DNA of 64,000 nt from Marisa cornuarietis (Eukaryota; Mollusca; Gastropoda; Architaenioglossa; Ampullariidae), in contig SMMW01000518.1 in the NCBI GenBank assembly GCA_004794655.1, forward strand, positions 882,501 through 946,500, given 5' to 3'. A program made the translations under genes and the position numbers. Below, piece after piece: positions 13,906-61,600 of the stretch (the first letter of the stretch is position 1; each line of letters opens with the position of its first letter). Below the pieces are notes generated by a model that saw nothing but the letters and a program-made list of their open reading frames with translations, was not told the DNA's origin and searched no databases.

Positions 13906-14161
13906 CCGAATTAATGTTCCTTTCAGGATATTTATAACTCATGTTTTAGTTTATGCATTTCTAAATAAAACTTCAAAATTTTGATGTTGGAGCACAAACC
14001 TATCTTGAGATACGGCCTTTTGTATTTAAGCCGTGGCAGAAAAAAAGGATAATTGGAGAAATTCAAGTTTAAAGATTTAAGATGTATATAACTTTTGTCA
14101 TATCAATTTCAAAAATAGTTTTTAGTGTTTATATGCTAGACTGGCCATCCTACTATATAAT

Positions 14162-34599: not shown

Positions 34600-34693
34600 C
34601 GTGATCTCGCTCAGCGCACTGACTCATGGGTAAATTTAGATATGGCCGAGGGAATGGTCGGTCAGAAACCACGCATTACGCTCTGAGGCAAGA
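34600..34693 (+). promoter_or_regulatory. Putative SBNO1 promoter / 5' UTR
   Basis: Immediately upstream of the start exon lies a stretch conserved in the inverted copy (17250-17345) even though the flanks diverge. It contains GCGTGATCTCGCTCAGCGCA and an AP-1-like TGACTCA at 34620-34626. An upstream ATG at about 34624 is out of frame with the proposed start. No TATA box is clear. Confidence 0.4.
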
Positions 34694-37600
34694 ATGGAAA
34701 CAGAAACAAGCGTGAGTATCTAAGACGCATAAATCTGTGACAGATTTCTAATATTGGGTTTATTGTTTATTAAACATTAGTTAGAAATATTATTTAACGC
34801 TCGAAGTTTTACTTTTCTTTCATTTTTATTATCATGGATAGTGTATCGCTATGACGAGATGTCCGAGTCAACCAAGGGGGTCATCCTTACGTCCACGAGG
34901 TTTAGTCACATTGGATTATATCCCGAGAAGCAGCGACACTTTAATTGATTACTTAGGTTGATAGAATTATGCGTTTAAGATACGTGTTGCAGATAGAAAG
35001 GGTAAAAATATACAAGATTAAAAAATAAAAATTAATATACACTGGTGGCAGGATAAAAAGGTTCTCCTCGTTTTTAAGTATTGAGAGGTTTACAAACACA
35101 CACACATCTGTCTTCACACATGAAACTTCCTCCCCCATTTAATGCACGAATAACGTGAAATGTCTTACAAAAAAACTTTAAATGAATGATGGTTTGAGAC
35201 CCAAAGCTCTGTTAAGATCTTTTAGTGTTGACTTTTATTCACATGCGAAAGTTTTAGGCCCTAACTATATTTTAATTAGTAGGATTGTTTACATTTTAGA
35301 TTGTTTTACTGTATCGGTCCATTATTTTGAAATTTGTTTAAAATAAGTCGATACAGCTTTGATATGAGGGAGGACGCGACGGCCATAACAAAAATGGCTC
35401 GCGGCATTTGTCGTCTGCTCGCTCCACTCAATTGTACCTAATAACCTAACCCTAACCCTAACCCCAAACCTCTGACAAAATAACAGAGCAGCCTATGACG
35501 TCACGTCTCCCCCCCCCCCACATATCAAAGTTCTGCCAACAAGTCAAGCAAAATGAATTTAAAACTAACATAAAGGGTGAAGGGTTGAACTTGTACCTTA
35601 GAGGTGGAAGGACTGATTCAAGGTGGGAAAGGTGAGGAGCATACAGGGTGTCATCTATCCTAATAGTCATGCTTTGCAAATGGCCTCTACATGGTCCAGC
35701 AGATACCTTTACCTTCCTTGCCTCATTTGAATAATTCTTTTCTGCTAGGCTGGGGAATTGACAGAATTAAATATAGAGTTAGTCGTTTAATACTTATCTA
35801 TGTAATTATAAAAAAATAGCATGTATTGTTTTGTATTTTTCAATGTTACAAAAAAAAACTTTATTAATTTCAGAACAAGGGGCTCCCACTTAAAGCTTAG
35901 TGTTAAATCACCCTCCCAACCCCCCCCCCCCTTTAGCAAAACAATAAATAAATCAATGTAAGGAATCGTCTTAAACTCAACGACGACAAGACAGAAGCGT
36001 TACTGTGCGGCTCCAGGGCCAGAAGGGAGCAGATCGGCATTAGTGCTGTGCAGGTCGGTGATGCCTCCATAGCCTTTGCTGACTGTGTACGGGACCTAGG
36101 GCTGTTTATTGATGCAGAACTCTCCATGTGCAACCATGTTAGTTCTGTTGTGGCAAAATCCTACTACTTTTTGAGGACCTTGTAGACTATGGCCCATGCT
36201 GACTTAAGCTGCTGCCAACTCAATTGCTGTGGCTACCATCATATCAAGATTAGACTACTGTAATAGTGCATTGTGGGGTATACCTGCTATGCAGTTGGAT
36301 CAACTCCAAAGAGTTCAAAACACAGCCGCCAGAATTGTCACCCGTGCAAAGTCGTCCACTGAGCACATCACCCCTATCCTACAGAGACTTCACTGGCTCC
36401 CAGTGAACAAGCGCATTGACCACAAAGTGCTTTCGATTGCACAGTCCTGCATGTTTAAAACTGCTCCTGACTATTTGCAAGAGATAGTTCCTCCTTCGAA
36501 TCATTATTGAACAGTCCATCGAATGGCAGTCCCCACTATACATGACATTTGTGGACTTTGAGAAGGCATTTGACTCCGTAGACAGAGAGACCATCTGGAA
36601 GTTGATGCAGCACTACGGATTTCCACCAAAGTTCATTGCCATCATCCAACAGCTGTATGAGGACTCGACATGCCAGGTGATCCACAATGGGAAGCTGACG
36701 GACTCCTTTGCAGTGAGGACTGGAGTAAGGCAAGGTTGCATGCTCTCGCCGACAATCTTCCTGATCGTCATAGACTGGATCATGAGAAGAACAACCTCTA
36801 ACAGCAACACAGGCATTCAATGGACCTTTGCCATGCAACTTGAAGATCTCGACTTTGCAGACGACATCAGCCTGCTGTCCCACAAGCAACAACATGCACA
36901 GACAAAGCTCACTCGGCTCTCAGAAGAAGCAGCGACAACTGGCCTGACAATCAACATCAAGAAGACAGAGGTAATGCGGATCAACAACAAGCAAGAAGCC
37001 CCACTTCAACTACACGGGGAATGTATCACAGAGGCTGACCGCTTCACCTACCTAGGCAGCATAGTCACCAAAGATGGAGGTGCTGATGAAGATGTAAGAA
37101 GCAGAATAAATAAAGCCAGGCAAGCATTCCACATCCTGCGACCCATCTGGAATTCCAAGGCACTATCTCAACATACCAAGATCCGCATCTTTCATACGAA
37201 CGTAAAATCTGTCCTTCTATATGGGTCTGAGACATGGCGTGTAACAAACAACATCACCAGGAAGATTCAAACATTCATAAACAGATGTCTGCGGCACATT
37301 TTCAACATCAGATGGCCCGAGAGAATCTCCAATGCATACCTGTGGGAGAGAGCCAACCAGAAACCTGCCAGCCAAGACATCAAGAAGCGAAAGTGGGGCT
37401 GGATTGGCCACACCCTGCGAAAGCCGGCCGAACATCTAACACGACAAGCTCTGGACTGGAACCCACAGGGGAGACGCAGGGTTGGGAGGCCCAGACAGAC
37501 GTGGAGAAGATCGGTCCACGGCGAGGCGGAGGCAGCTGGAATGACATGGACCCAACTGGGGAGGGAGGCCCAGAACCGGGTTCGCTGGCGTGGTGTAGTT

Positions 37601-40600
37601 GCAGCCCTATGCTCCACTGGGGGCGAAAAGGAATAAGAAGAAGAAGAAGTTCCTCCTTACCAGCCATCACTTGGTCTGCGCTCTGGCTCCCAGTCACGCT
37701 TCTGTCTCCCTGCAGTGGAAGACACAAACAAGAAGCGCACTGGAGCCAGGGCCTTCAAAAACGCGGCACCTAAACTGTGGAATGCTCTGCTGTCGTCACT
37801 GTCCACCATCACCTCACCAACCACGTTTCAAAAAAGTCTGAAGACCCATCTGTTTATTTAAGATGGACTTAAACTTACTTTCCTGGTGTTTTATCTATTT
37901 ATTTACTTTATTTTTTCTTCTTATTTTTTGTATTTATTTTGTTTTTGCTGTGCAATGAGCATTCTTCTGAATGGATACCTGCCCATTAAAAATGGACATC
38001 ATCATCATCATCAAGCTGGTACCGGGGGCTGGTCATTTCATCCTACATAGGTCCATTTTGTCTCTGTTTAAAATAGGCAGCTGAGCTTGCGTATCTACAT
38101 TGGACGAACAACCTATGGCTATTTTGGTAATATTTGATGTTAATAGCTACTTGTTTCATAGGTGATAGGTTTGCCTTTTGGGGTTGGGAAGATTTGACTT
38201 TTCTGTCTTAGGGCATAATGGATTTATGGGACGAATTGACTTTTGGTAGTGGTTGGGCCAAAATAATGCTAGGAAACAATTAAACATGATTAAAAAGTTA
38301 ATGATACCTTAACACTAAAGGATAAAACAGCATAGCGTATGGAACCATGTATAAAGTACATGAATGACTACTTTGAGTGTTTAGTCTGTCTAATAAGACT
38401 ATGAACTGCTGAGAAAATATTCTAAAGTTTTAACTCTCAGTCCAGAAAGGCTGAAGAGTAAGTAGTAAGTCTGTATCTATATTAAATCGAGAAGGAAGTT
38501 TAATTTTATAAATAATAACTTGATGGATATTATTATGAAGTGCACATTTTCAACTGTTTAAGGGATTTTATGAAGATGAGGAGTATTAAATGTCCATTAC
38601 TTTTTTATATTACTTATTCCATTACTTTTTATATTGTTTGGCTCTTTATGTGGCTTGTATATGGAAAACTGGGGGAAACAAAAAGTGCCAGATTATACTG
38701 AATAAAGCAAAATGAATATAATTGCATGTAGCTATGTAGGATTTATTTTTTAACCCTTTTAGCACGATGTGCCACAATTGTGGGTTTACCGGCAGAGCAC
38801 GATGAGCCACTGTCATGGCTCATGCTCCACAAGCATGGCTCTGCAGTTTCACTATCGTCTTCAAAATCATAAGTTTTAAGCTAATGTTTTTGAACATATA
38901 AATAATTTTAGACGTACTAAGATGGTTAATTTAAGGAAATGGCCACCTTTTTATTTGGGATTTTATTTAGTTGGTTACATATTTGTAATTATAACCTATA
39001 CCTGTATGGCTATGTTTTGTACTTGCAGAGTGTTGGAGACTTTTCTGATTTATTGTCTGCTGCCTTGAATGAGTCCGGTATTACTGGAAATGATTTTGAA
39101 GATGACTTAGGCTTTGAATCATCAGGCATTGCATACAGTTCTGTGTCACAGCAAGTAAGAATGTTGACTTTTAAGCTAACAGTAGTATTGTCTTTTATTG
39201 TATTTTTGTATGTAAACAACATTGCTTACTCTTTACTATTCAAAATTTTTTTCAGATCATTTTTATGTTTTTGGTGAACGGTTGTTTCTCGTAACATTCA
39301 CTTAACATCAGTGTCACTGTTGAGATTTTGATAGATACTTTTTATATTTTTGTCTTTTTTAATAAAGAAAATTTATATCCTCGGTGTTAGTAGAAAAGAT
39401 ATCTTTGCCTTAACTTATTGTACTTTTCTTATTTTCCTATTACCATTTATTTTAGTAATGAGCAGTAAGTTAACAAAATTCTTGTAGTCTTTTCTGATAT
39501 TACTTTGTGTTTGTATTTAGCATTGTAAATGCGTGGTCACTGCTCTTCTATGAAAAATTTAAGTTTAGTTATACGTGAAGTAATGCCTACATTGTTCCAT
39601 CATTTTGTAATGTTGTTGTTACGTCTGCAAGGTCCCATCTGGGCAGGTGATTCCAGCCATTCCTGCCTCACCGGCATCCAATCTTACCACCCAAGTCATC
39701 ACTGTACGACCGTCTGGTGGACAGCTAGGCAACATAAGGCTGGTCACACCGCCACGTGCTGTGCCCACAGGCACACAGAATCTTCCCACTGTCAAGGTGG
39801 TTCAGAGTACTAATCCACAAGGATCTGGCACACCAGTCACCAAAATAATCCGTCTGTCCACCCCAAACTCTCTTCTGCAAAGGACAGGTTCTACTGTGAG
39901 TGGGGTTCAACTTTCCAATGGAAACCCAGCAGTGATCAGGCAGGTAGTGAGCTCTGCTTTGCCTGGTGCTGCTGGGGGTGCTCGTCAGCCACAGATTATC
40001 ACCATCACTCGTGTTCCACAAACATCAGGTAGTGTCTCGCTGGGCAACAAGAAGGTCATTGTGACAACTCAAGGGTCAGGCAATACAGTGGCAGGGAATG
40101 GTAGTGGGACCACTCAAAAGATTGTCTTGACTCAAAATGGCCAGACTCTATGCCCCATCAGGCCATCGTCAAATGGGCAGCACCAGGTCTTTGTGGCCAA
40201 CATTAATGGTCAGCAAAAGATACTTCAGACCACTGCTGGAGGCACACAGATGCTCATCAGTGCCAACGGACAGCAAATGGTGCGTGTTGCACCTCCTACA
40301 AAACCAGTGTCTACAACAACTGCCATTTCTGGTGGATTAGCTTCAGGTGAAAGTGTGGCAGGTCCACAACAGAGAAGCGTCCTACAGTCTGGGTCTGTCA
40401 GCAATGTGAAGACCACATCCCTTCTGAGCAACAGCTCACCTGTGCATGTTGTAAGCAAAGCAGGACTTACTGGTGGGAAAATGATCTCAGCTGCCCTCTC
40501 CTCCGTACACACACTGGGTCTTCGCAGTTCGTCCAGCAGCCCTGCCCTGGACAGCCACTCCATTTTGCGCAGTGGGTCTCCAGCTTTTGGTGGAAACATA

Positions 40601-43600
40601 CCTACCATAGTGACACAGAAGACTGGGATGAGCAGTGACAATCTGGGCCATTCATCTTTAAACAATTCTTACGGTGGGAATGTCCCAACCATTGTGACTC
40701 AACAGTTTGGCAGTGGCAGTGAGAGTTTTGGTTCAGCAAATGGGCTAAGTGTTAAAGCCAATGTGTCTGGAAAGGAGTTGTCCCGAATTTGGTCGACTGG
40801 ACACTTTCGAACGGTAAGGAGATATTTTGAGGGTGGGAGAGTTGGTTTTTTTCTCGGGGGTGTGGTTGGTACAAATGCAAATGATGTAAATGGGGGAGGG
40901 GGGATGTCACAAAACCCTATCCAACCAGAAGGCTGATGGTATTGAGAGAGATTATTCTTTAGAGAGTCGGTGTCTTTTATCAGCTGGACAAAGCAGACAG
41001 CATGATACATAATTTGCCTAATTCTGCCCCTGCACCGCCATAGCAAGAATATAACTCGCCATTTTTTTTTAAAGCACTTGTTTTAAGAATGTGTTACATT
41101 TCTGAGATGTCTTGGTAATATTTTTTCAGAAGCATTCAGACAATTTCAAAGTAATAAAAACTATTAGTGAAACCATTGGTATCCATTGTTAGATTATTGC
41201 TAGATCGTTTTCTGTGGGACATATTTTCGTATATAATATTAGCGTTTGTGCATTCTCCTTTTTGTGATAGTGTATGCATATTTATGCGACTGTCTTCCTG
41301 TTTTCTTTTGAAAACTTAAAAAAAATGTCAGGCACAGAATACTTGACACTGTTGGGTGCCATTGTTTTTGTATGTGAGACTGGTGCTATGTTTAGGTTGG
41401 TGTTCTGAACTTGCAACATTTGCAGGCCTCTCAGTTTCAAGATAATGAGGAGGAGGAAGTTGCTGAGGAGGTTGAGGAACTTGGTCATGCTGAAACTTAT
41501 GCCGAGTATATGCCTAGCAAGTGTATGTGTTAATTTGGATTCTGAGGTGGAAATTTGATGTTCACTACTAGTTTGCTTGTCGATGATGAAACTTTCAGAG
41601 CTAAAACTATCTGAATCCATCATGAATCTTTAATGATAGGCCTGAGACAAGATATTCATGTAGGCTTATCTGTGAAAGATGTTGCAGCTGCAATCCTTTA
41701 CGATACTGGTTTTGTCTGCTGTTAGAAAATTTTGGTTATACTTACACTTCTGTCTCCTAAAGGCTAACCCAGGTGTAGAATTAATTTTTAGTGAGTGGGT
41801 GTAGTTTGTTCTAAGGTAATAATTCTCAGAATTTAAATGATTTACTCTGTTCCATTCACACAATACGGGCTGTTGATATCATAGCTATGTGTGAGCATTT
41901 GCATTGGCTGTACTCATTTTCATCAGAAGTTAGAATTTAGGCCATTTAGCATGCCTCTGTTTAAAAAAAAAAGTGCAAGATCTGTTTGGGACAGACTAAT
42001 GATGTTGACTAGTACAGTAAAACTTCCCTAGTAAGATTACCTAAAATCCTCTGAAGTCAGATTGTAACCTCCAGATAAGAGCAATTGATTAATACATGTG
42101 TACCTGTGTAGACAAAGGCACTTTTTAAGGTGCACTATATTTTTCTTTTACATGATTTCTACAAAAAGGTCACAGTAAATCACAAGCAGTTGGCCATGAG
42201 TTTTATTTTTACAAACAGGTGACCTGCAAAAAGGTAATTTTTAAAACACAATCAAACATTTTGTTGGTGAACAGCAAGGAACAATTGTTTCTACCAAAAA
42301 TCCTTATAGCCCATCTATATCAACCTTAGTCAAGTTGATGTCATCATGACCATATCATCCTACATAAGACCACATCCCAGCCCTAACCCTCTTAGCACGT
42401 CAAAAAATATTTCTATCTTCAAAAACATGGCCTTAGAATTTATGATTCTGAAGACAATGGTGAAACTGCAGAGCCATGATCGGTTTAAAGTCAAATCAAC
42501 CTGATTTGAGCAGTGATACCCGTTTCATATTAATTGGACGTCTGCATATACCTTTAATAAGAACCTCCTAACTAAAGATTAATGGCAACAAAGGCTTTAA
42601 AAGAAGGAAAAAACCTAATGATTTCAGAAAAAATCGTGTTAAGCATCATCATGTGATTTGTTTTTTTTTAATATGTATTGCGGAGCAGCCATTTTGTTGT
42701 AAGATGGTGGCTGAATTTTTTTGAACAACATATGGCATTGTTGGTAATATTTGATGTTAGTAGCTACTCCTGTCATTGAAGATCAATTTGTAGTTGGGCC
42801 TGGATTTATTTGGCTTTTGGTGTATGGGTGAAATGGTCATTACAAAGTCGTGTTGGGGAGTGGTGGATGGTCATAATAGAGATATAGCAAAGTAAGTCTG
42901 TGAAAAATGTTTGGGTCCTTATTAAAAGGGGGTTGTAATTTATAAGATCTTAATAAGGAGGTTTTACTGCATTGTCTGTTAACCAAAAAACAGCTCTAAT
43001 TTTTTACCTGGGTTAGCCTTTACAAATTTCACAGGTCACACTAGTCAGTGTGTGTAAAAGCTAAATTAAATCTCAATAAAAAAATCATAGTACATATTGC
43101 AAATTATATAAATTGTAAAATCCCACTTTTTTCTTTTTAAAAGTTTTCATTTTAATGTTTCACATTGCCATGAGAAAATATATTTTGCTGTACAGTGAAG
43201 ATTGGTGAGAAGCATCCAGACCAAGTGGTTGAGACCAGCTCACTTTCAAGTGTAGAGCCCCCTGATGTACGATACCGGTTGTCAGTCCCAGAGAGTGTAA
43301 TTGACAGTGGAGTTTTGTCAGCGTTACAGCTTGAGTCGATCACATATGCATCACAACAACATGAAACTATTCTGCCAAGTGGAGAACGTGCTGGATATCT
43401 TATAGGTAATATATATCTCTATGTGGCATAATATTTAGGCATTGTGTATAACTGTCCACTCTTTGATGTATCCTTGTCTTGTGATGAATCCTAAGAGCTT
43501 TTTGCACTGATTTTACACTGATTCTCAGTGATAGGCCTGAGACAAGATTGCTTGTTTTCCAGTATATATCAGATGCAGATGGTGAGCTTTTTTGTATATG

Positions 43601-46600
43601 ATTCTTAAAAATAGTAAGGTCTGGTTAAGTTAAAAATAAAAATATTGACTGCTGACAGAAAGTCCCAATTGCGATCACATCCATTTTCATTTATACATGT
43701 AATATAGCTGGTCTGACCACCATTGATCAAACTCTAGTTAGAAACATGCTTGTCTTAAAATGTTATAACTCTCAGTTTGAAGCAAAATGCACAATATATA
43801 TATATATAAATGACACCTGTCCTAGATTCACTATTGTGCATTGGCATATGGTAAATAAACATGCATGTGGCCTTGTGGTCTGTATTTGTCCTGCTCGGGA
43901 CATCTGAAAGTGGCCTTAGTCTACACCTGGCATGTTTACTTTGTACCTATTAATGCTGTATCACCCTCAGCCAATGAGCAGTGGTCACATGAGGGGAACC
44001 GACACAGAAAGCAGCCTTGTCTGTGATGAATCCTTAGAGCTTTATAGACTGATTTCACTGTGATTCTCAATGATAGGCCTGAGACAAGGCTGTCTTTGTT
44101 GTCTGATATAAAACGAGCTTCTGCTTTTTTGTTTAAAAAAGTAAGATTTGATTAAATTTTGATCCCCCAGATTTCAATTTTGGATAAATGGCTAATTGTC
44201 GATTAAGTGATTTTGCAAGTCTTAGGTCTGCAGTACATCTGCTTTCACATGCACTGTTACTTATTGGCCAAACATTGATTGGATTTAGGCTGGGAATTTT
44301 CTTTGAACTTGTTTTGCATCAATTTCTGTTGAAGAAATATACATATTCTGTTTAACCCTATTTGCACGATGGGCCACGATCGTGACTTTGCGGACAGCAT
44401 GAGCAAGGCGATTTTCATTATTTTGATTGCAAAATTCAAGTTTTTTCTTTTCCAAAAATGTATAGGTTTCTTGGTCTAATGTTAATCTCAGAGCAGCAAT
44501 AATAATATACAAACATCATCCACTGTAGTCTTCACAGTCTTCAGTTATAAGCCAGTCATTGTAATGTTAAATTTTTATATTGTGATAAGAGGGTTAATTA
44601 ATGATGTGTAGCAGGCAGATTTGCATTTGCACATTAACATGCCACAAATGGACAAGTTGATGGCCTTCCTCAAACACTTGATCATCTTAGGATTTCTGAA
44701 CGGAGCTTAGACATTAAGGTGATAAACTGCTGTCAGCCTGTGAACATCCCTGAAAATGCTAAATGCCATTACCCATGCACTGTAACTGATCTGACCAGCA
44801 TTAAATTCTTGCTGTGAATACATTTTGTTTAATTTGTGCTTTCTATAATTTTATGATGAAAAGTTACACAGACCTTAACTCCATATATGTTAGATAGGTT
44901 AACGATTGCATATAGCACACTATGTTTGGAAATGCATCATGCCTTTCCTTGAGTGCTTGCCCTTTAAAGACTTCTAAATAGTATTAACAAGCAGCACCTG
45001 GGCTGTCACTGCTTAAATGCAACCACCATTATGTCAGTGGACAGTGGGAGAAAAGCTTTAAAAACAGCTATCCACCCATCTGTGTAACCTCTATAATGCA
45101 GCCTTGTCTGTGATGAATCCTTAGAGCTTTATGGACTGATTTCACAGTGATTCTCAATGATAGGCCTAAGACAAGGTTGATCAGTTCCTAATAAGTAATT
45201 TAACACAACTGGATGTAAGATTTGTTAATCGTTTTGGAGGAGATTGTTGACTTGTGTCGTGTAATCTAGCACATTCGTTTACTTTAAATACATATGCTAA
45301 AGCCAGTAAGACTTTTTTTTAGACATGTTTCTTCAAATTCCTTTAAGAACAAAGTGTTACATCTAGTGTATGTAAGGCAAATTTGCTGTGGCACCTGTAC
45401 TGACCACAAAAGGACATGGCATGTAGCCACACCTGTTGCCTAAGCACGATATACTTTCCACTAGTGCTTTAAGAGTGAAAGAACAGTCTGCTTTGTGCTT
45501 ATAAATATTCCTGTTTGCTATTAAAATGAAGCCTTGTCTGTGATGAACATCTAGAGCACTTTCAACTGATTTCACAGTGATTCTCAATGATAGGCCTGAG
45601 ACAAGGTTGATCAGTTCCTAATAAGTAATTTAACACAACTGGATGTAAGATTTGTTAATCGTTTTGGTGGAGATTGTTGACTTATGTTGTGTAATCTAGC
45701 ACATTCGTTTACTTTAAATACATATGCTAAAGCTAGTAAGACTTTTTTTTAGACATGTTTCTTCAAATTCCTTTAAAAACAAACTGTTTTGTTTTCTAAC
45801 ATGAAACGAAATCTGCTGGTCAGCTAGTTTTACAAAATGAAGACTAAGATTTAACATCAGTTTTGGCACAACTCTCTGGTTGACTGATTCAGCACTTGGT
45901 GTCTAATGACTTCTGAAAATGATTAACGCATTGGATGTATATTTTATCCTAAACTTCTATCACATCAACAGGCAGTGACAGTTACAGTAGATGTCCAAAA
46001 CTGGTATCTTGGAATAGGCTGTCCGCCCATGAATGTCTGTGTTAACTCAAATGCAGCCTTGTCTGTGATGAATCCTTAGAGCTTTATGGACTGATTTCAC
46101 AGTGATTCTCAATGATAGGCCTGAGACAAGGTTGATCAGTTCCTAATAAGTAATTTAACACAACTGGATGTAAGATTTGTTAATCGTTTTGGTGGAGATT
46201 GTTGACTTGTGTCGTGTAATGTAGCACATTCGTTTACTTTAAATACATATGCTAAAGCCAGTAAGACTTTTTTTTAGACATGTTTCTTCAAATTCCTTTA
46301 AGAACAAACTGTTTTATCTAGTGTATGTAAGGCAAATTTGCTGTGGCACCTGTACTGACCACAAAAGGACATGGCATGTAGCCACACCTGTTGTCTAAGC
46401 ACAATATACTTTTCACTAGTGCTTAAAGAGCAAAAGAACAGTCTGCTTTGTGCTTATATATATTCCTGTTTGCTATTAAAATGAAGCCTTGTCTGTGATG
46501 AACATCTAGAGCACTTTCAACTGATTTCACAGTGATTCTCAATGATAGGCCTGAGACAAGGTTGATCAGGTCCTAATAAGTAATTTAACACAACTGGATG

Positions 46601-49600
46601 TAAGATTTGTTAATCGTTTTGGAGGAGATTGTTGACTTGTGTCGTGTAATCTAGCACATTCGTTTACTTTAAATACATATGCTAAAGCCAGTAAGACTTT
46701 TTTTTAGACATGTTTCTTCAAATTCCTTTAAGAACAAAGTGTTACATCTAGTGTATGTAAGGCAAATTTGCTGTGGCACCTGTACTGACCACAAAAGGAC
46801 ATGGCATGTAGCCACACCTGTTGCCTAAGCACGATATACTTTCCACTAGTGCTTTAAGAGTGAAAGAACAGTCTGCTTTGTGCTTATAAATATTCCTGTT
46901 TGCTATTAAAATGAAGCCTTGTCTGTGATGAACATCTAGAGCACTTTCAACTGATTTCACAGTGATTCTCAATGATAGGCCTGAGACAAGGTTGATCAGT
47001 TCCTAATAAGTAATTTAACACAACTGGATGTAAGATTTGTTAATCGTTTTGGTGGAGATTGTTGACTTATGTTGTGTAATCTAGCACATTCGTTTACTTT
47101 AAATACATATGCTAAAGCTAGTAAGACTTTTTTTTAGACATGTTTCTTCAAATTCCTTTAAAAACAAACTGTTTTGTTTTCTAACATGAAACGAAATCTG
47201 CTGGTCAGCTAGTTTTACAAAATGAAGACTAAGATTTAACATCAGTTTTGGCACAACTCTCTGGTTGACTGATTCAGCACTTGGTGTCTAATGACTTCTG
47301 AAAATGATTAACGCATTGGATGTATATTTTATCCTAAACTTCTATCACATCAACAGGCAGTGACAGTTACAGTAGATGTCCAAAACTGGTATCTTGGAAT
47401 AGGCTGTCCGCCCATGAATGTCTGTGTTAACTCAAATGCAGCCTTGTCTGTGATGAATCCTTAGAGCTTTATGGACTGATTTCACAGTGATTCTCAATGA
47501 TAGGCCTGAGACAAGGTTGATCAGTTCCTAATAAGTAATTTAACACAACTGGATGTAAGATTTGTTAATCGTTTTGGTGGAGATTGTTGACTTGTGTCGT
47601 GTAATGTAGCACATTCGTTTACTTTAAATACATATGCTAAAGCCAGTAAGACTTTTTTTTAGACATGTTTCTTCAAATTCCTTTAAGAACAAACTGTTTT
47701 ATCTAGTGTATGTAAGGCAAATTTGCTGTGGCACCTGTACTGACCACAAAAGGACATGGCATGTAGCCACACCTGTTGTCTAAGCACAATATACTTTTCA
47801 CTAGTGCTTAAAGAGCAAAAGAACAGTCTGCTTTGTGCTTATATATATTCCTGTTTGCTATTAAAATGAAGCCTTGTCTGTGATGAACATCTAGAGCACT
47901 TTCAACTGATTTCACAGTGATTCTCAATGATAGGCCTGAGACAAGGTTGATCAGGTCCTAATAAGTAATTTAACACAACTGGATGTAAGATTTGTTAATC
48001 GTTTTGGAGGAGATTGTTGACTTGTGTCGTGTAATCTAGCACATTCGTTTACTTTAAATACATATGCTAAAGCCAGTAAGACTTTATTTTAGAGATGTTT
48101 CTTCAAATTCCTTTAAGAACAAAGTGTTACATCTAGTGTATGTAAGGCAAATTTGCTGTGGCACCTGTACTGATCACAAAAGGACATGGCATGTAGCCAT
48201 ACCTGTTGCCTAAGCACGATATACTTTTCACTAGTGCGCAAAGAGCAAAAGAACAGTCTGCTTTGTGCTTATATATATTCCTGTTTGCTATTAAAATGAA
48301 GCCTTGTCTGTGATGAACATCTAGAGCACTTTCAACTGATTTCACAGTGATTCTCAATGATAGGCCTGAGACAATGCTTGCTTGTAATATCAGAAAAGTG
48401 CTGCTGTTGAGCTACTTCTGCTTTCATGTGGATTTTCTGTGATAGGCTTGAGACAGGGCTATTTTGTTTTCTAACATGAAACAAAATCTGCTGGTCAGCT
48501 AGTTTTACAAAATGAAGACTAAGATTTAACATCAGTTTTGGCACAACTCTCTGATTGACTGATTCGGCACTTGGTGGCTAACGACTTCTGAAAATGATTA
48601 ACGCATTGGATGTATATTGTATCCTAAACTTCTATCACATCAACAGGCAGTGACAGTTACAGTAGATGTCCAAAACTGGTATCTTGGAATAGGCTGTCCG
48701 CCCATGAATGTCTGTGTTAACTCAAATGCAGCCTTGTCTGTGATGAATCCTTAGAGCTTTATGGACTGATTTCACAGTGATTCTCAATGATAGGCCTGAG
48801 ACAAGGTTGATCGGTTCCTAATAAGTAATTTAACACAACTGGATGTAAGATTTGTTAATCGTTTTGGAGGAGATTGTTGACTTGTGTCGTGTAATGTAGC
48901 ACATTTGTTTGCTTTAAATACATATGCTAAAGCCAGTAAGACTTTTTTAGACATGTTTCTTCAAATTCCTTTAAAAACAAACTGTTACATCTAGTGTATG
49001 TAAGGCAAATTTACTGTGGCACCTGTACTGACCACAAAAGGACATGGCATGTAGCCACACCTGTTGTCTAAGCACAATATACTTTTCACTAGTGCTTAAA
49101 GAGCAAAAGAACAGTCTGCTTTGTGCTTATATATATTCCTGTTTGCTATTAAAATGAAGCCTTGTCTGTGATGAACATCTAGAGCACTTTCAACTGATTT
49201 CACAGTGATTCTCAATGATAGGCCTGAGACAATGCTTGCTTGTAATATCAGAAAAGTGCTGCTGTTGAGCTACTTCTGCTTTCATGTGGATTTTCTGTGA
49301 TAGGCTTGAGACAGGGCTATTTTGTTTTCTAACATGAAACAAAATCTGCTGGTCAGCTAGTTTTACAAAATGAAGACTAAGATTTAACATCAGTTTTGGC
49401 ACAACTCTCTGATTGACTGATTCGGCACTTGGTGGCTAACGACTTCTGAAAATGATTAACGCATTGGATGTATATTGTATCCTAAACTTCTATCACATCA
49501 ACAGGCAGTGACAGTTACAGTAGATGTCCAAAACTGGTATCTTGGAATAGGCTGTCCGCCCATGAATGTCTGTGTTAACTCAAATGCAGCCTTGTCTGTG

Positions 49601-52600
49601 ATGAATCCTTAGAGCTTTATGGACTGATTTCACAGTGATTCTCAATGATAGGCCTGAGACAGGACTGTCTTGTTAGCTGCTCATATTTGCAAATTGGTGG
49701 TGATAAACACTCAGGTTACATGACCAGGTACAAGAACTGGCACAAAGTAACATGTAAACAACAGGTTTGCCCATGTACTATAGCTGATCTTCCAAGAGCT
49801 GTTTTAATTCTAGCACTGAATGCATTATCTTTCAGTTTGTATTTTTTATAACTTTCTGTTAAAAACAGCACAGACATTTTACTCATGAATATTATTCAGA
49901 TTGTCTATTGTGGATTCAAACACTACAAAAAGACAGGCATAACCTTGCCTGAAATGTTGATGTGTCAGTGGACATTAATAGCTTTAGTTGATAGCCACAG
50001 CTAGTGTGTTTAAAAAAAAAAGTGGAGACATCCATTACAACTCTGTTATAAGCCTTGTCTCTGATAAGTCCTCAGACTGATATATATATTTCATAGTGAT
50101 TTTCAGAGATAGGTGTACGAAAAGTTTTGGGGTTTTTTCCATTTAAAAGAAGTTGCTATTAAAGAGTAAGATGCAATGATTTTGGCTAAAAATTTACATT
50201 TCTTACTAACTGCTGGCTGGTAACATGATCTAGCAGCTAGCTTGTTCTACTTCTGGTGTGCGCTGCTCTTACATTTTCATTTGCACACATATTGTGCCCA
50301 ACGCAGATCAGATTCTTGCTCTAAATACTTTTCCCTGCTTGCATACATTTCAAAATGTATATCTGACTCTAGTGTGCGTTTCCTATTGGACATGTACAAA
50401 GCACAAATAGACATATATTGGTGTGATCCTGCCTCTAAGTACTCAGCAATTCAGAATTAGGCATTTAGAGCTACCTACCATTGATCATCTGTAATAATGT
50501 GAACATGCAGCCTTGTCAGTGATGAATCCTTAGAGCTTTTCGGACTGATCTCCGTGATTCTCAATGATAGGCCTGAGACATGGCTGTCTTGTTAGCTGCT
50601 CATATTTGCAAATTGGTGCTGATTACCACTCACACATTTTTCCCTCTGCCTTCCCTAGCTTTGTTTTAAATTTCTTCCTATTTGTTGACATGGCTGAAAT
50701 CACTGTTACTTTTAATTTCATAGTTTTTCATGATAAAGTGGTTTTTTTAACCTTACCAGAAGATAACTGTCAAATTTTGTCTAAGCATGAATTTTAACCA
50801 ATGGCCAAGATTTCTGTAGTATCATACAATTAAAATTGGTTTTATTGTTTCGCATTTTGCAAGAGAAAAGTTTGTTGAAAGGCTTATTTTGTTTACAAAT
50901 TTGATTGAGCTTTCCCTGTCTGCTTTGTTCAATGGCCAGCCTTGATGATGACACCTAGAGCCTTTTATAATGACTACAAACTGATTGTTAATGATAGGCC
51001 TGAAACAGGGTTATGCTCATCATCTGTAAATAGTCATTCTTTTTGTGAGGCTTATAGAGTTTTATTTGTCATCATAATGTTTGTCAAGTTCAGTTGACCT
51101 ATCCTCAAGTTTAAGGATCATCTTCCGCACATTCAGTTTTTAGCAACTTTGCTCACAGTAAAAAAAGGTTGGCTGCCCTCATAATGTTTAGATAGGAGGC
51201 ATCATTTACTTTTCAGCACAAATAAAGGCGCTAACTTCAAGCATTCATTAATATCATGTTTTTTGTGTGCATTTTACAGGGAAGTAGCTACAATATCTGT
51301 GTTCACAGACCAAATAGCTTTTTTTTACAGTTGATCCCCAGTCATTATTAACATTCAAGTATATGCTATCTTTAAAAACCTGTTGGCTTTTTAATTTTCC
51401 AGGTGATGGTGCTGGTGTAGGCAAGGGTCGAACAGTGGCTGGAATAATTTATGAAAATTATCTTTTGGGTAGAAAGCGTGCTCTGTGGTAAGTCTGCTAA
51501 GAATTTGCAGCTGCTTATATTTCTTGAAATAATCATCGATTGAACAAGGAATAGTTTTAACAGTTGAGGAAATGCATGAGTATGCTGTTTAAACATCATC
51601 TTAGTTGCTCATTGATTCCTTTAGATGTTTCTGTTTGTGTAAAAGCCAGTCTTTGTACAAATTATAAACCTACTGGTGCTACATAAAGGAGTTTTTGACC
51701 TCATTGATGATGACAAATTCATGAGCCAAATACATTATTTGTCTTTAATGTGTAATGATAGGCCTGAGATGACATTCAAGAATGTGAATTAATTTTTCTG
51801 AAATGAAAATCTTTTCTCCATTCAAACAGTCAACAAAAATGTTGCATTTATTTCAGGGGATCTCATTATATAGTTGCTAGGCGTTTTTGCCACCCTACTT
51901 ATCTCAACTGATATTAATTTTTAATGCCCTTTCTAGCTAGCCGTAAAAAGGGCACAGCAGTATATGTTTGTTATTAGATGACCTTTATCTCCGATTTCAC
52001 GTTTTTTATGTAATATGATGTTACTGAAATTTGAAAAACAAGTAATGACATGTCCAAGTTAATTACACAGCATTGTATACAATGAGACCTCAACATTTTT
52101 TTTTTTACCATTTTTAGACTTCAGTGCCAAATTGTTCATAATCTCAAACCCCTTACACAATTTTTCATATGTTATTTGGAACATTTTTATAACAATGACA
52201 GTGACCAACTTTATTTGTCCCAGTGGGCAATTTGAATATGGGAATGTGCTCTAGTCGCAAGTAAAAGTTAGAACTAAAAGTAAGAAATAAAGAAATGAAA
52301 AATGTAAAATGGAGTGGGCAAGTGGCAATCATATCATATCGATCATATATATATATATATATAAAACTTACATTAAGGATAATCATGTTTGCACCTACAG
52401 CATCATACACACGCACACGCTCACCATTGACAGGTCATCTAAGATTGAGCAGCTGGACTGCAAATGGTATAAATCTGAAATAATTTCAGGTGCCTGTTAC
52501 TTTTACATATAGGCATGGCATAACTTTTTACCTTGAGCTTAATAATACAAACTCTTTTGTTAATACATGCTGAGGTAATGATAAAATGCATGAAGCTTTT

Positions 52601-55600
52601 ATGAGTTTTCCATGTCGTTACATGATGCAAGATGCTTTAGCTAGGTCTTTCGCACCTGTTGTGAGGTATTTCTTGAAGCATCACAAATACTGTCATTGGC
52701 TTTAAGCTTAATGGCTGTTATTTGCACTAAATACCCAGGCGTAACAAGGTTTTAAAATTTGGTTGTTTTATGCACAGGCTCAGTGTGTCAAATGATCTTC
52801 GAGTTGATGCAGAGCGAGATTTGCGAGACATTGGTGCTGGAAAAATTGAAGTCTATCCCCTTAACAAAGTAAGATTAAATGCATTCACTGCTCTCTATTC
52901 TCCATATTCCCTTTTTTTAACACCTAGGAATTTTCTGCACATCAAATTATATAAAGTTTTGTGGACATTTTGATGAAATGAAGACCAGTAACTGATTGCA
53001 TTTATTTTTCATCATTATAGTTCAAGTATGCAAAGATTTCATCCAAAGAGAATGGAAGCGTCAAAAAAGGTGTCATATTTGCAACATATTCCTCGCTGAT
53101 CGGAGAGAGTCAGTCAGGTGGAAAATATCGTACCCGTTTAAAACAGCTACTAAAGTGGTGTGGAAAGGACTTTGATGGTGTTGTATCCTTTAATCACAAG
53201 GTGGAATATTGTGCTTTTTTTTTTTTTCACCCCTATGCATACCATTTTCATGGTGCAGATATAATTTATACTTATTCAGACAGCAGTTTTGAGGTTCAAA
53301 TTGAAATTTTTTTAATAGGAATCAAGTGGGTTTTCATTATCATTTCTAAAGAGGAAATTTACATGAAAGAGGACAAGTAAGGGAAGGGGACTCCAAACAC
53401 ATACTCTTAACATGACGTTAACATCATCATTTTAAGATGTTTCTGCTGATGTAATAACCATTCATTCTTTGTACAAATAATAAACTACTGGTGCTACATA
53501 GCAGAAGTATTTTTTGTTTTGTTTTGGTGTTTTGGGAAGAGGGACCTCATTGATCATGACAAGTTCATGAGCCAAATACATGATTTGTCTTTGATGTATA
53601 ATGATAGGCCTGAGAGGAGGTTAAAAATGTGAATTAAATTTTCCGAAACGAAAAAGAAAGTCGTCAACTTTAGAATCATCTTTATATTATAATCATTTTC
53701 ACAAGCAGACTTGTAGCTTACTGAAAGTCATCTCAACAGAAAACTGATGTGTTGCATTTTCTTTTTTTGACATTTTTATGTCCAGTGTGAAAACATATTT
53801 TTATAGAAGGTAACAGAAGTCAACATTTTCTTCCCTCATAGTAGGGGTGGGCAGGGTTTTCTTTTTGCGGGCTGGTCTGAAGAGTCTAATCTATGTGACG
53901 GGCTGGTAAAATAAGGAAAACCTATGCAAAGTGACTACACAACAAACAAGTGATAATGGAATGAACAATAAATGAGTATATAAAGGCATTCACATACCAA
54001 ATTTATTGTGTAAAGTGAAACTCTTTGAATTCGCTCACAGTAAAACTTTAAAATCAGCCTTTCCTTTGAAGGCAGCCTCCCCCTGATGCTTTCTGACGCC
54101 TCCATCAGTCAGCTTTGTTATTTGTTATCTTTGTACTTTATCTGTGTTAGAATGTTATGGACTGTGAATTTCTAACGACAAGTCCTATTTGATAGATTTC
54201 AATCAAATGAAGCTAAGTTTATTTTTTAAAAAAACGAGTACACTGCACAGTTTGGCAGACAGGCTTGTCCAAAGATATCTGCAGGATGCCTGTGGACCAT
54301 ACTTTGCGCACCCTTGCCTTATACGGTCAGTGATTCTCCAGTTATAAAACAATTGTTCATATTTTATTTGTAAGACCGTTTGTGGACCATTGAGGTGTGA
54401 CATGGGAAATTAGTAATAATCTTATAGGGCTATAGGCTATTTAAATTTGTCCTTTTAATCTGTGCAGTTTCTGTTTTAACTCTTTCCTTACCGTGATCTT
54501 CGCCTGAACCCGGTTCGCACCCTATGGTGTGATGCAGGTTTTAAATGTTGTTACTCTTAAACATCGTTTTTTTTTTTAGAAGAAAAACTTAATAAATAAG
54601 ATAGCTTATTCATTTCTGAACACAATTGTCTTTCTTAAAAAGTGTAAGAAGTAAGTTTTAACAGGAAGTCTTTGCATTTTCCCACGCTACCTGTCTTTCT
54701 GTTTTGTAAAAGGCTAGCAAATTCCCGGTATTGAAATTTCGACCGGCAGCTTTTAAAATTTATATTTATTAATCTACAGTAAAGATAACCATCTGTAATA
54801 CACCGTTTTAAAGAGCTTTTTTAAAACATTCCCTTGGTGTAAATTTTAAGATACATAAGTTTTGTCTTCGAGTACTAAAATCAAATGAACTGTACGTGTT
54901 TTAGATTATTTGAACGTAAATTTCAGAAATTAAAAAAAAAATTATTTATTCAATATATACAGACATAAAGTACCAAACAAACATATGTTTTATTAGAATA
55001 TACATTAGAATTTAAAAATTACTTACTATTTTCTTCTCCTTTGCGGTTGTTGAAGTACAAATCCATGTCAAATTGAGTAAACCGCAACGTACTTTCGATA
55101 ATTCAAAATGGCACTCGACCATTTGTTTACATTTTTCCCTCTTACAAACGAATTTTTTGATTGGCTGGACTAGTTTTTAGAGGGAGGGAATCATGGTGGA
55201 CTATTTCCGAAAGATTTCAGTAGTTTCTTCCCTTGTTATTTTCATTTACGTTGCGGGAGTTTTTTTTAGCTCATTATCATGGAATTACTTGTTGGGAATG
55301 CTATAAAAGTGTGTTTTCAAGCAAACACAAGGTTAGGCTGCTCCTTTTCTCTACATTTTGATCTATCATTATCAATTTGAGTTGTTCTTCTACCTCTTTT
55401 AGTTAATTTTTTATGATTTTTTGAAAAAGGGGTAAATACATCCGTTCAAGGGTTCAGAACCGCCGCTTAAGACTTCCGTAGTGTTCAGTATAGATCGAGT
55501 TAAAAAGCAGTACTGTGTGACAAAAATTAATGATCATTTCTGGTATTGTTTACCTTTTGTAACGTTTCTTGTGTTGACCTTGACTTCAAAGATCGTGTTT

Positions 55601-58600
55601 GATGAATGTCACAAAGCCAAAAATTTGTGTCCGACGGGATCCAGTAAACCTACCAAAACAGGGCAGACAGTACTAGAACTTCAGAATCGACTGCCAAAAG
55701 CTCGTGTTGTCTATGCCAGTGCCACTGGTGCTTCTGAACCAAAAAACATGGCGTACATGACTCGCCTCGGTCTCTGGGGTCCTGGCACACCCTTCAAGGA
55801 GTTTAATGACTTCATTCAGGCTGTGGAACGTAGGTATGTGCCTTTTCTCATTGCCATGCCATTGGTTACTTTTTTGTTGCCAGCAAATTCTATGTAGTAC
55901 TTTAACCATGTATCCAATTTTTGCAATGCAGCAACCAGAAAAAAATGTTTTAAATCTTTGCATTTACTAATGTTCTTTTGCTGATGAATTGAAGGTGTGG
56001 GAGAAATCCTTTTTTTCTTTTTATGATGGTATGGCTGTTGGCTGGGGACAAATTTATCAGAATTGAAAGATCTGATAATACTTTGTGTACAGGGGAGTTG
56101 GTGCCATGGAGTTGGTTGCTATGGACATGAAGCTCAGGGGCATGTACATTGCACGCCAGCTTAGTTTCCAGGGAGTCACATTTCGCATTGAGGAGATTCC
56201 ACTGGAATCTGAATTCAAGAAAGTTTATGATGATGCAGCTGAGTTGGTGAGTGTTGAGTATGATCTAGCCCTCTGTCTGCTTGTCAAATGACCATTTTTG
56301 TAAATATTCCTGAGAGAACCCATCCTTGTTGGATGCTACGTTTGATGATTTGAGCTGTTAGCGGTATACCTTCAGTTTGCTATTTTTGCTAGTTTTTTTT
56401 TTTTAATGTAATCTGAAGAAATGTCTTACTGACAGATTGCTTAATGTCTCAAGCACTTACAATGTTTGTGTTGACAGTGGATGGAGGCACGAGCCATGTT
56501 TCAAAAAGCTGCAGATTTGATTCAAGCCGAGCACCGAATGCGAAAGTCAATGTGGGGACAGTTTTGGTCTGCTCATCAGCGGTTTTTCAAATACCTGTGC
56601 ATCTCTGCTAAAGTCCCACATTGTGTGTCATTAGCTCGGGAAGCTGTCAAGGCAGGAAAGGTAAGACAGAGCAGCTCTATTTCTGGCTTGAATATACACT
56701 TAGAAAAGAGTGGTGTGGAGTTCTGATGTAAAGTTTATGTCATAGGGTATATTCCCCGCCATTGGCAAAATCTTTAATGGTGGTTCGTCAGTTGTTTTTT
56801 GTGTTTGTTATTTGCGAATTCTATTTTTGTTCCTTTTTTTGGTGTACAGAAACGAGGTGTTTAAAATCACATTCATTTTACTTGTTTTGTAAGAGATAAA
56901 TCAGTAATGTCTGGCATACAAGAAAAGGAACAGCAGTAAAATGAAATAGTTTATTAGGTATCTGATATCCTACTCCCCAATTTTTTTTTTTTTGTTGAGG
57001 GTGGTTAAACCTTGCAAAATAATTTCTTTTATTCTGTTAACAAATATTTTTCACATTATTTTAATTTGCAAGGTAAGTGAGATCAGCATTTCTAATAAGA
57101 AAATTCCATCTTGGTAGCTTAAATTGCTATTAATTACTATTAATATTACATTTTAAGTACTAGCTTGAACAGGAATCTATTCTGGTAGGCTGGTTGTTGA
57201 GGAAGGAAGATTGTGGTCAAAGCTAAGAGAAAGCCACCTCTGTTGCAGTGTGTTGTCATTGGCCTACAGTCAACAGGGGAGGCAAGGACTCTGGAGCAGG
57301 TGGAGGAGATGGGAGGAGAGTTGAATGACTTTGTGTCCACAGCTAAGTAAGATCTCTCATTGGTTATATTTCAGCTAATTGAAATGTGAATGTTTAATTT
57401 TTCCATTATTTCTTTGTTTAGCTTATTCTTGACATGCATGCCAGGTATGATTTTAAAACAGCATCTTATAGACTAAATTTAAGTGCAAAATTATTCCAGA
57501 TGGGTGTAATTTATTTTCATATGCTTACTACAGAAATTGGAGAGAAGAACTAGTCTGTACCATATATAAGATCCACGCCTTTGTAGGGTTGAAAAGTCAC
57601 AAAGTTGACTCTTTGATTGAGCATTGCTTATTAGAATGTACCCAAAACTGAAGTGGCAGCCTTCATTACATTAAATTTAGATCAATCATCTTGTGAATTT
57701 CTGGAAGAAAATTAAAATTAACATTGCAGTTTTGTAAAACTAGTTTACAGTGCTGTAGTCTCCTCAGCAGCTTTAAGCTTAATTACATATTTGATTTATG
57801 GTAGCCTTTGAAGGGGTTAATCCTTCAGCGACGGTAGGCTAAGCGGCCGTTTGACCCCTTTGGACGGATGTATTTACCCCTTTTTCAAAAAATCATCAAA
57901 AATTAACTTAAAGAGGTAGAAGAACAATTAAAATTGATAATGATGGATCAAAATGTAAAGAAAAAGTACAGCCTTACCTTGTGTTTGCTTGAAAACACAC
58001 TTTTCTAGCATTCCCAACAGAAAATGCGATGATAATGAGTCCATACAAAAATGCCCGCAGTGAAACATTAGCTGCTTTCACAATCTTAAACGAAAATAAC
58101 ATAAGGGAGGAAACTACTGAAACAATTAGTATGTTCCACTATTATTCCCTCCCTTGAACTGGCAGATAATCAAAAAATTGTGTTTTGTAACAAAGAAAAA
58201 AATGTAAACATTGGTCAAGCGCCATTTTGAAGTATCGAAGTGCATTGCTGTCACTCAATTTGACATGGATTTGTACTTCAACAACCGCAGAGGAGAAGAA
58301 AATAGTAAGTAATATTTAAATTCTAATGTATATTCTAATAGAACATATGCTTGTTTGGTACTTTGTGTAAATAATTTTTTGTTAATTTCTGAAACTGACC
58401 TTCAAGAGCTCTAAAACGTGTACAGTTCATTTAATTTTAGTACTTGAAGACAAAATCTGTGTATCTTACAATTTACACCAAGTGAATGTTTTAAAAATGC
58501 TCTTTAAAACGGTGTATTACAGATGGTTGTCTTTACTGTAGGTTAATAAATATAAATTTCCAAAGCTGCCGGTCGAAATTTAAATACCGGGAATTTGCTA

Positions 58601-61600
58601 GCCATTTTCCAAACAGAAAGACAGGTACCGTGGGAAATCGCAGAAAATTACTGTCAAACGTAAAAACTACGTCATGAAAAGAAGATCACTCGATAGAAAA
58701 GTGAATCAGCTATCGAATTCATTAATATTTTATCTGAAATAACTCATTTTAAAAGGTTAAAAAAAATTAGAAAAAAGTCCCTGGCAAATTCGCCAGGTAC
58801 GTGGCCAGGCGTTGTCCACGCTCCCCGGGGAATTCACCTGCGACGTCGCGATTCGATTAAACCTCCGTACTTATAGTCTCCCAGATACAGCATCTGTTGG
58901 CCAAAGTACATTCTTTTGAACTAGTCCAGTTAGTGTATGCTATCAAACTCCAGCACTAAACCATGTTGATCCCTTGTTACCTATGTTCCCTTAATGACTA
59001 AAATTATTTTTTCTCTGTTCTCAGGGGTGTTTTTCAAACACTGGTGGAGAAACACTTTCCTGCTCCAGATCGTCGCAAGGCATTTGACATGTTAGGGCTT
59101 GGCAACTATGCTCAGCGTGACAATGCTGACAGCCATGATGGCACAGGATTCAAGAGGAAAAGAGGTCAGTTCTATGTCTTGATAATCAAATATATATATT
59201 CTGCAGAATGACACCCACCTTTGTTGATGTTATGGTCCCCATCACATTTATACATATTAATGCATTTGTTAATAAATAAAATATCACTTTGAATACTTCT
59301 TGCCACAAATAACAGAAATCGCTCAGATAATCAGGAAAAGTTTCATGACTACTTTTCAGCCAAACAAGTTTTAGCTTTAGTTCTTTTATAATTTCATTGC
59401 AATACACATTGGTTTAAAACAGGCAACATAAATAAAGTGTTCTTATCTCTCAAACAGAAAGTGATATTCCAGCGACAAAGCGCCAGAAAGTTGACAGTAG
59501 TGACTCCAGCGATTCCAGCTCCTCAGCTTCAGAAGCTAGCGATTTTGACTTGAGTGCGAATTCTGACTCTGACAGTGATGATGATCACAATCCTTTCGGT
59601 CACGGTGGTTCCGACAGTGATGACGGTAAGTTACTAGCTTGAAAACTTTCGTTGATTCTGAAATGGTTTGACAGTGCATAACTAATCTTAAGATAAACAA
59701 AGCATTTGATTTTCTAGCTAATTAACATGATGGTGTATTTTTTAAAACCCATTTTTAATGCTTGGCCTTGACCTTGGTTGATATATATTTGGTATTAACC
59801 CATCCTTAATGCTTGGGCTTGATCCCCTGGTTCTGATGTTCATACTTGTTTTTTTGTGTGTGCGTGTTTTTTGAAGATCCATGGTTGAAGAAATCCAAAA
59901 AGAAAACTAAACCTCCAAAAAAGAAAAAGGAAAAGAAAAAAAAAGTGAAAAAGTCATCTTCAGATGAAGAAGATAATCAGCTTGACAAAGCTCTGGCAGC
60001 CGCTGGTCTCTTGAAAAAAAGCAATTCCTATGCTGGCTTCAGTGATAAACTAAATGGAAGCTCTTCCAATGAGCCTATCAATGGTAAGATAACACTGAGA
60101 TAGTATTTGATAAATTCTGACAATAGGGATGCAATCCATGATGATTTATAGCACTAGGAAATCAGTACTTGATAAAGTGTGTCACTAGGAACCAGTGTTT
60201 GTACTATCTGCACGACTTATATGCAGTAGCTATGGGGAGGGGAACATTTTTAGTTAAGCCAACAACTAAGGTGGAAAATAGTACTTGCTTAAGTTTAAAA
60301 CATGCCTTTATTGTCAAGTGCATTTTTTGTTTTCAAGGGATGGATGTGTGGGAAAAGGCATTTTCTATGAAGTCTGAGCTTCTAAACCTGATCGAACGCC
60401 TTGGTGAGAGGCTGCCACCTAACACGTTGGACCAGCTGATTGATGAACTTGGTGGCCCAGACAATGTTGCAGAGGTTTGTTGCAGTTTAGGGTTACAGAT
60501 TACAGGTTGCCTGTTGGAATAACTTTTAAGCTAAAGGAAAATATTTTAGGGGGGAAGGACATAAACTTTTACTGTCACATCTAAAAGGGTTATGCTGGTG
60601 GATGCCTGCAAAATAACATTTTATCTAGTTAGATGTTTATTGGGACATTGTGAACAGTTTCTATACATTGTAGAGGTGAGTGATTTGTAACCAATAATTT
60701 CTTTTTAGTAATGTCGAAAGAAGTGATAGATCTTATTCCTGAAAACTATTGTACTGTAGATTCACTGGTAACTCAAATTATGTTGTTTTTTTAACCCAAA
60801 AAATGTTTTGAACATAGATGACAGGCCGGAAGGGACGAGTTGTTCAAGGAGATGATGGCATTCAGTATGAATCTCGTAGCGAGGCTGACGTTCCTCTGGA
60901 AATTCTTAACCTTACAGAGAAACAACGATTCATGGATGGTGAGAAGGTGAGCATCAGTATTTTGCTTCAGGGTATCTCTGGGAGTTGATAAGTAATGAAG
61001 GGGAGAATGTAAAAGCTACCTTTGCATTTTATCAATATTGTTTTTTACCACATGATATCCAATTGCTGCACCTTACGAGTAAAAAAAAATCTGCTGAAAT
61101 CGATAAAAGATGGAATGATAATAAGGTAAGATCTAAGAGCTGACATTGTAATTGTTTAAGTTCCCAGATGATTAGAAAGAACAAACAAACTGCAGCTTAG
61201 TTGTTTGAAACATGCCAGTTCTTGTTGGCCATTGGTGCAGAAAAATTGCCAGATGGTTAGTGACATAAAAGTACTTTCAATTTCATCTCATTGTTTGCCT
61301 TAATGTTTTTTATCTGCCATAGCTGAAAGCTGATGTTTGTGTTTCAGAACATTGCCATAATATCTGAGGCTGCTAGCTCCGGTATCTCACTTCAAGCTGA
61401 TCGTAGGGCTGTAAACCAGCGTAGGCGTGTTCACGTCACCCTGGAGCTGCCATGGAGCGCCGACCGTGCCATACAGCAATTTGGTGAGCTGTCATTTTTC
61501 TTTGTTGTGATGCACTTAAAAATAATAGAAGTGCATTCTCTACTGGCTAGTGGCCATGCAAAGCATTGCTGCATGAGTCATGATTTTGTTATTGTCTTGT

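Follow-up and report, generated by a model that had tools for sequence, protein, structure and literature searches.

A candidate 28S rRNA methylation guide amplified in tandem within an intron of the Marisa cornuarietis SBNO gene

Why should one intron of a protein-coding gene hold many copies of what appears to be the same small nucleolar RNA (snoRNA)? The question is raised by a stretch of the Marisa cornuarietis genome (64,000 nt of contig SMMW01000518.1, positions 882,501 to 946,500, forward strand; hereafter the window), in which the helicase gene SBNO (strawberry notch) carries repeated units with the form of box C/D snoRNAs. From the sequence, we propose that introns of this gene probably hold a conserved guide for methylation of 28S ribosomal RNA (rRNA), with 15 of its 18 units tandemly amplified in one intron. 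The units would be transcribed as guides directing 2'-O-methylation of one 28S adenosine, the A of CCU[A]UC. A first-pass annotation had read the locus as an amplified intronic box C/D snoRNA array, and that interpretation is supported.

The host gene was identified from Pfam domain AAA_34, which is found on the exon before the array and on exons after it, and from Helicase_C_4, the 'C-terminal domain on Strawberry notch homologue', on a downstream exon; this agrees with the gene named in the first-pass annotation. Exon ends were placed from GT/AG dinucleotides and reading frame, not from RNA. We built a covariance model, R1, from nine distinct units, which necessarily match it. It detects 18 full-length units, each about 73 nt long and scoring 62-92 bits, and all of them share the strand of the SBNO gene. 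Fifteen lie within the intron at 43406-51402, and three other SBNO introns have one each (41576, 51700 and 53546), as the first-pass annotation had claimed. That annotation counted 14 units in the large intron; the array itself stands, and the count becomes 15 full-length units plus decayed ones. Three decayed units were found besides the 18, one at 50054 (28.9 bits) and two relics lacking a C box at 48377 and 49235 (17 bits each), and the best R1 score outside the array is 17 bits. The core motif ATGATAGGCCTGAGAC, allowing up to three mismatches, matches 20 times in the window, always on the + strand and between 41633 and 53616, against 0.45 matches expected from shuffles. Core units are of two types, A and B, and nearly all of the difference between them lies in the D' guide. 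The features are as follows, with R1 scores.

41576-41651, + strand: full-length C/D unit in an upstream intron, with the best match to RF01641 (ceN53); 71.7 bits
43406-51402, + strand: SBNO intron with the array, splice sites inferred from GT/AG and reading frame; AAA_34 on the preceding exon
43473-43546, + strand: full-length unit, distinct copy; 81.2 bits
44016-44088, + strand: full-length unit, A-like copy, its flanks near chance identity to those of 46058; 92.3 bits
45103-45175, + strand: core A unit, D box changed to CTAA, probably inactive; 87.3 bits
45525-48294, + strand: two copies of a 1385-bp higher-order repeat, order B-A-B
45533-45605, + strand: core B unit; 87.4 bits
46058-46130, + strand: core A unit; 91.8 bits
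46488-46560, + strand: core B unit; 87.4 bits
46918-46990, + strand: core B unit; 87.4 bits
47443-47515, + strand: core A unit; 91.8 bits
47873-47945, + strand: core B unit; 87.4 bits
48303-48375, + strand: core B unit, terminal stem shortened to 5 bp; 81.2 bits
48377-48457, + strand: relic unit without C box, D box TTGA; 17.0 bits
48733-48805, + strand: core A unit; 91.8 bits
49161-49233, + strand: core B unit, terminal stem shortened to 5 bp; 81.2 bits
49235-49315, + strand: relic unit, copy of 48377; 17.0 bits
49591-49663, + strand: core A unit; 87.1 bits
50054-50124, + strand: decayed unit; 28.9 bits
50512-50582, + strand: full-length unit, distinct copy, 4-bp contiguous stem; 75.9 bits
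50936-51009, + strand: unit with guide and boxes, without terminal stem; 62.2 bits
51700-51773, + strand: unit in the next intron, GAGCCAAA type; 73.9 bits (TtnuCD20 20.2 bits, E 3.9)
53546-53619, + strand: unit in a further downstream intron, GAGCCAAA type, C box TGATCA; 74.7 bits (TtnuCD20 23.1 bits)

A typical unit consists, in order, of the stem strand CCTTGTC, the C box GTGATGA, AGAGC, the D' box CTGA, a C'-like TGATT, the guide CAATGATAGG, a C, the D box CTGA and the stem strand GACAAGG. The C box is TGATGA in 17 of the 18 full-length units (TGATCA in 53546) and the D box is CTGA in 17 (CTAA in 45103). The terminal stem has at least 5 bp in 14/18 units, compared with 8% of random places, 4 bp in three and 1 bp in 50936. 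D' CTGA and C' TGATT are present in the core copies and imperfect in 50936, 51700 and 53546. In the large intron, 13 of the 15 units retain both boxes and a stem of at least 4 bp, the exceptions being 45103 and 50936. The box and stem anatomy of the first-pass annotation is borne out overall, but not in every unit, given the D box of 45103, the C box of 53546 and the stem of 50936.

We profiled nine distinct copies by ungapped identity, anchored at the guide or at the C box; a gapped measure of flank identity was uninformative, with shuffles at 0.72-0.84, much like the flanks. Identity is 0.98 at the guide and D box and 0.96 at the C box, only 0.3-0.65 between C box and guide, and 0.20-0.33 in the upstream and 0.24-0.41 in the downstream flanks, where part of the excess is a spacer common to A and B copies (97% over 100 nt). 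The copies at 44016 and 46058 are 97% identical in the body, while their 100-nt flanks are 28% and 31% identical. Conservation is higher in the boxes and guide than in the spacers, the pattern by which the first-pass annotation proposed to judge the array, although it had related species in mind and our comparison is of paralogous copies in one genome. The longest invariant runs among the nine copies, with the A type represented by 46058 and not by the D-box mutant 45103, are TGATAGGCCTGA and GAGC. Together they comprise box D and the two stretches that can pair with adjacent parts of the 28S rRNA.

The 28S loci of the same assembly were found by a pattern containing part of GATGTCGGCTCTTCCTATCATTGCGAAGC, which gave 10 places, and all eight loci fetched (L001-L008) read GATGTCGGCTCTTCCTATCATTGCGAAGC. 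In 18/18 full-length units, the bases at -2 to -11 relative to box D can pair along the 28S stretch CCUAUCAUUG, with at most one G-U pair: 13 units form 10 contiguous Watson-Crick pairs, and five form nine plus one G-U. The count also took in the relics 48377 and 49235, in which this pairing is broken, and left out the decayed 50054. The core guide scores 12.0 under permissive scoring, against 9.1 +/- 1.1 for shuffled guides (maximum 11.6 of 60), and is the only D-guide among those tested singly to beat all shuffles. A second invariant element lies close by. GAGC is located 7-12 nt past the C box in 18/18 units and is complementary to GCUC of GGCUCUU, directly 5' of CCUAUCAUUG in the 28S; with its neighbours, at least five Watson-Crick pairs are possible, at a distance of one or two bases from the region bound by the guide. 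One core A unit, 46058, illustrates both elements.

46078-46082, + strand: AGAGC as an example of the accessory element; its complement in the 28S, GCUCU, lies one base 5' of the region bound by the guide
46110-46119, + strand: example D-guide CAATGATAGG, 10 bp with 28S CCUAUCAUUG

The D+5 rule predicts methylation at the A of CCU[A]UC, which lies 34 nt 5' of the A-loop U and presumably near helices 90/91. The A-loop U is Um2921 in yeast, Um4468 in human and Um3254 in Dictyostelium, according to PMC8817022. From this numbering and the 34-nt offset, the predicted site would correspond approximately to yeast A2887, human A4434 and Dictyostelium A3220. The rRNA stretch itself is familiar as a primer site: 28S primers published in avian, leafhopper, acanthocephalan and nematode studies contain GGCTCTTCCTATCATTG or its complement, and a primer in a human-cell study contains CTCTTCCTATCATTG. 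The 28S strings had no match in viral-contig or genome-contig collections. In two 28S copies, L009 and L043, what appears by eye to be the end of a retroelement without long terminal repeats (non-LTR) adjoins the 28S. The junction is at GGGTCAGAAAAGTTACC, roughly 90 nt upstream of the guide target.

The two elements may act together. The guide and GAGC would grip neighbouring 28S stretches across the kink-turn, which brings the C and D boxes together so that the two contacts could form side by side. According to PMC5389607, methylation by yeast snR13 is stimulated by extra base-pairing of this kind, which played no role in the U18 constructs of that study. In snR13 and U18, a second stretch of the snoRNA pairs beside the guided rRNA site, as is proposed for our units; in our units, however, the element follows the C box and is predicted from complementarity and conservation only.

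Known box C/D families provide a further comparison. The combination of AAUGAUAGG-Y-CUGA with a GAGCC or AGCC element is common to our units, to ceN53 of Caenorhabditis (RF01641) and to TtnuCD20 of Tetrahymena (RF02296). ceN53 resembles the units in size, in architecture, in its D-guide AAUGAUAGG-U-CUGAG and in having GAGCC after the C box, but the best match to it, at 41578-41649, scores 33.1 bits (E 0.0012 for 15 kb) against a gathering threshold of 50. A search of the whole genome with RF01641 gave no match at E<=0.001 among the 60 of 218499 candidates scored. PMC2527325 treats the ceN53 locus as having an upstream motif of its own, and we found no target stated for this snoRNA. TtnuCD20 has the CAAUGAUAGGCCUGA guide and box and a AGCCAAAAAC element like that of the units at 51700 and 53546, and differs from them in the body; 53544-53615 scores 23.1 bits (E 6.8 for 15 kb, 0.95 for 2.1 kb), short of the gathering threshold of 80. 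The units at 51700-51773 and 53546-53619 form a subfamily of their own (GAGCCAAATACAT), in which the element is closer to the Tetrahymena AGCCAAAAAC than that of the core array is. The remaining weak Rfam matches on units, to SNORD25, SNORD99, SNORD70, snoZ196 and others, are all to box C/D families, with E of at least 0.9.

Several observations weigh against a working guide. No unit reaches any Rfam gathering cut-off, so we do not assign the units to ceN53 or TtnuCD20. The D-guides of 41578 (9.4), 50940 (9.4) and 51702 (10.8) fall inside the shuffled range for the CCUAUCAUUG site, and that of 50940 scores higher, 10.2, at another place in the 28S; the weight of the target evidence therefore lies on conservation and not on single matches. 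Seven D' guides match no rRNA better than shuffles in the full 18S, the 5' 1668 nt and the 3' 1050 nt of the 28S, a test that left aside the middle of the 28S and units 51700 and 53546. Covariation in the stem is weak, with two pairs changed on both sides (matched by 218/500 shuffles) and a score matched by 58/500, and individual units are damaged: the D box of 45103 and the C box of 53546 are changed, 50936 has no stem, and three units are decayed. To our knowledge, no methylation has been described at the equivalent A in yeast or human. The site table in PMC8817022, which covers Dictyostelium only, has none at A3220.

How did one intron come to hold so many copies? The 11 core copies contain five distinct bodies. 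The segments 45525-46909 and 46910-48294 match at 1374/1385 positions, their 11 differences all falling within the final 210 bases, and the segments starting at 48295 and 49153 are identical at 428/428. The 1385-bp higher-order period reported in the first-pass annotation is confirmed, as is the near-identity of the core copies; its statement that the array is still being homogenised goes further, since near-identity may come from recent unequal crossing-over just as much as from continuing homogenisation. The identities fit recent unequal crossing-over or conversion, and assembly error in such repeats is a possible contributor to the array sequence. If the copies arose by unequal crossing-over, snoRNA dosage would rise with them. 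Internal units might be released from the shared intron by an endonuclease or as longer, snoRNA-ended RNAs. We also considered cryptic host exons that would give each unit its own intron. Within the core repeat, the sites found by scoring with a simple splice matrix are no more than modest, with stronger single sites near the array edges (43582 and 50659), and such exons are unlikely.

The same copies can be explained in other ways. The large-intron array might be a snoRNA-derived tandem repeat of mostly inert copies, with one or a few working genes such as 41576 or 51700. The decayed units 50054, 48377 and 49235 and the D-box mutant 45103 would be expected of such a repeat, and the very recent duplications leave no time for selection. 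We nevertheless consider it unlikely, because 43473, 44016 and 50512 keep boxes, GAGC and guide despite unrelated flanks, and because loss of a box or of the stem is confined to two of the 15 full-length units in that intron. A miniature transposon or dispersed repeat, its terminal inverted repeats mimicking the snoRNA stem, would account for CCTTGTC/GACAAGG and for similar bodies within unrelated flanks, but stems vary among the units whereas boxes and guide stay constant, and the snoRNA-shaped motif occurs in pattern searches only in the SBNO gene and on one strand. In the 534-Mb assembly, ATGATAGGYCTGAG is found at 19 places, 15 in the SBNO gene and four elsewhere (reversed-pattern control, 2), and AATGATAGGNCTGA at 31 places, 16 in the SBNO gene and 15 elsewhere (control, 6). 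Two of the places elsewhere are common to both patterns, leaving 17 distinct ones. All 17 lack the snoRNA layout, and none exceeds 17 bits with R1; L031 and L051 have TGATGA about 58 and about 40 nt upstream, with no matching stem or GAGC. Uniqueness judged by pattern could miss a diverged unit elsewhere, but on these results a dispersed transposon is hardly credible.

Two further alternatives accept the units as snoRNAs and change what they do. The array could act in cis or as a long RNA, its small nucleolar ribonucleoproteins capping snoRNA-ended long noncoding RNAs (lncRNAs) or tuning SBNO splicing. In established biogenesis, exonucleases alone cannot free internal units. Two snoRNAs in one intron can yield sno-lncRNAs (PMC11028025). 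This explanation, which we regard as very unlikely, leaves the 28S complement kept in 18/18 units and in ceN53 and TtnuCD20 unaccounted for, and relatives of the array units occur singly in other introns. Alternatively, these could be orphan snoRNAs whose true target is set by diverging D' guides, in a neofunctionalisation like that of SNORD115/116. It would suit this idea that the A and B types, which differ in little but the D' guide, are maintained next to each other in the B-A-B repeat, and that 44016 retains an A-like D' guide despite its flanks. We give it little probability, however, because the invariant parts are the D guide and GAGC, whereas D' regions vary among distinct copies and the seven tested found no rRNA match beyond shuffles. 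A conserved 28S guide in SBNO introns remains the reading we prefer.

Large tandem C/D arrays are known at eutherian imprinted loci, where SNORD115/SNORD116 and SNORD113/114 reside, and in rat Bsr, and they too are tandem repeats with subfamilies and homogenisation (PMC11028025). Arrays of the SNORD115/116 type are imprinted and consist of repeated lncRNA introns with orphan targets, whereas the 15 units of the SBNO array all lie within a single inferred intron of a protein-coding gene and carry a conserved rRNA guide. The same source notes that animals tend to have one snoRNA per intron and that intronic clusters are also described (PMC11028025). We found no snoRNA array in an SBNO intron in the literature at the level of titles and abstract openings, a weak negative given that subscription literature is thinly covered; in the same partial coverage, SBNO1, snoRNA and intron were mentioned together in a single paper, on splicing factors. 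Insects and plants have several snoRNAs per intron, but these are usually different snoRNAs, unlike the 15 copies of one in the SBNO intron. More tentatively, and with some doubt, the locus may be an invertebrate counterpart of SNORD115/116: a homogenising array of one rRNA guide in a protein-gene intron, with copy number setting dosage and an ancient two-part grip (GAGC and the 10-nt guide), shared with one ciliate and one nematode snoRNA, on the 28S beside the peptidyl-transferase centre. The 2'-O-methyl would then be added at an A (about human 4434) that is not known to carry one in yeast or human.

The surroundings of the array contain other features. A large inverted duplication relates 8144-17690 (inverted) to 27913-39787, with pieces 84-91% identical, and includes a piece of the apparent 5' exons of SBNO (15108-16115 and 38827-39787). 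A second inverted repeat of about 0.8 kb and 83% identity (54678-55479 and 57831-58637) apparently lies inside SBNO introns. Frames at 20433-21398 (- strand) and 36488-37633 (+ strand), near SBNO, resemble non-LTR reverse transcriptases by eye. At 27105-27955 there is a SET-domain exon (27105-27320) with a likely second SET exon, which we take to belong perhaps to a KMT5A/SETD8-type gene.

If the units are guides as proposed, the array would allow one to test how internal snoRNAs are released from a shared intron, and whether snoRNA copy number tunes methylation. A guide common to nematode and ciliate may also mark a neglected site beside the catalytic centre of the ribosome.

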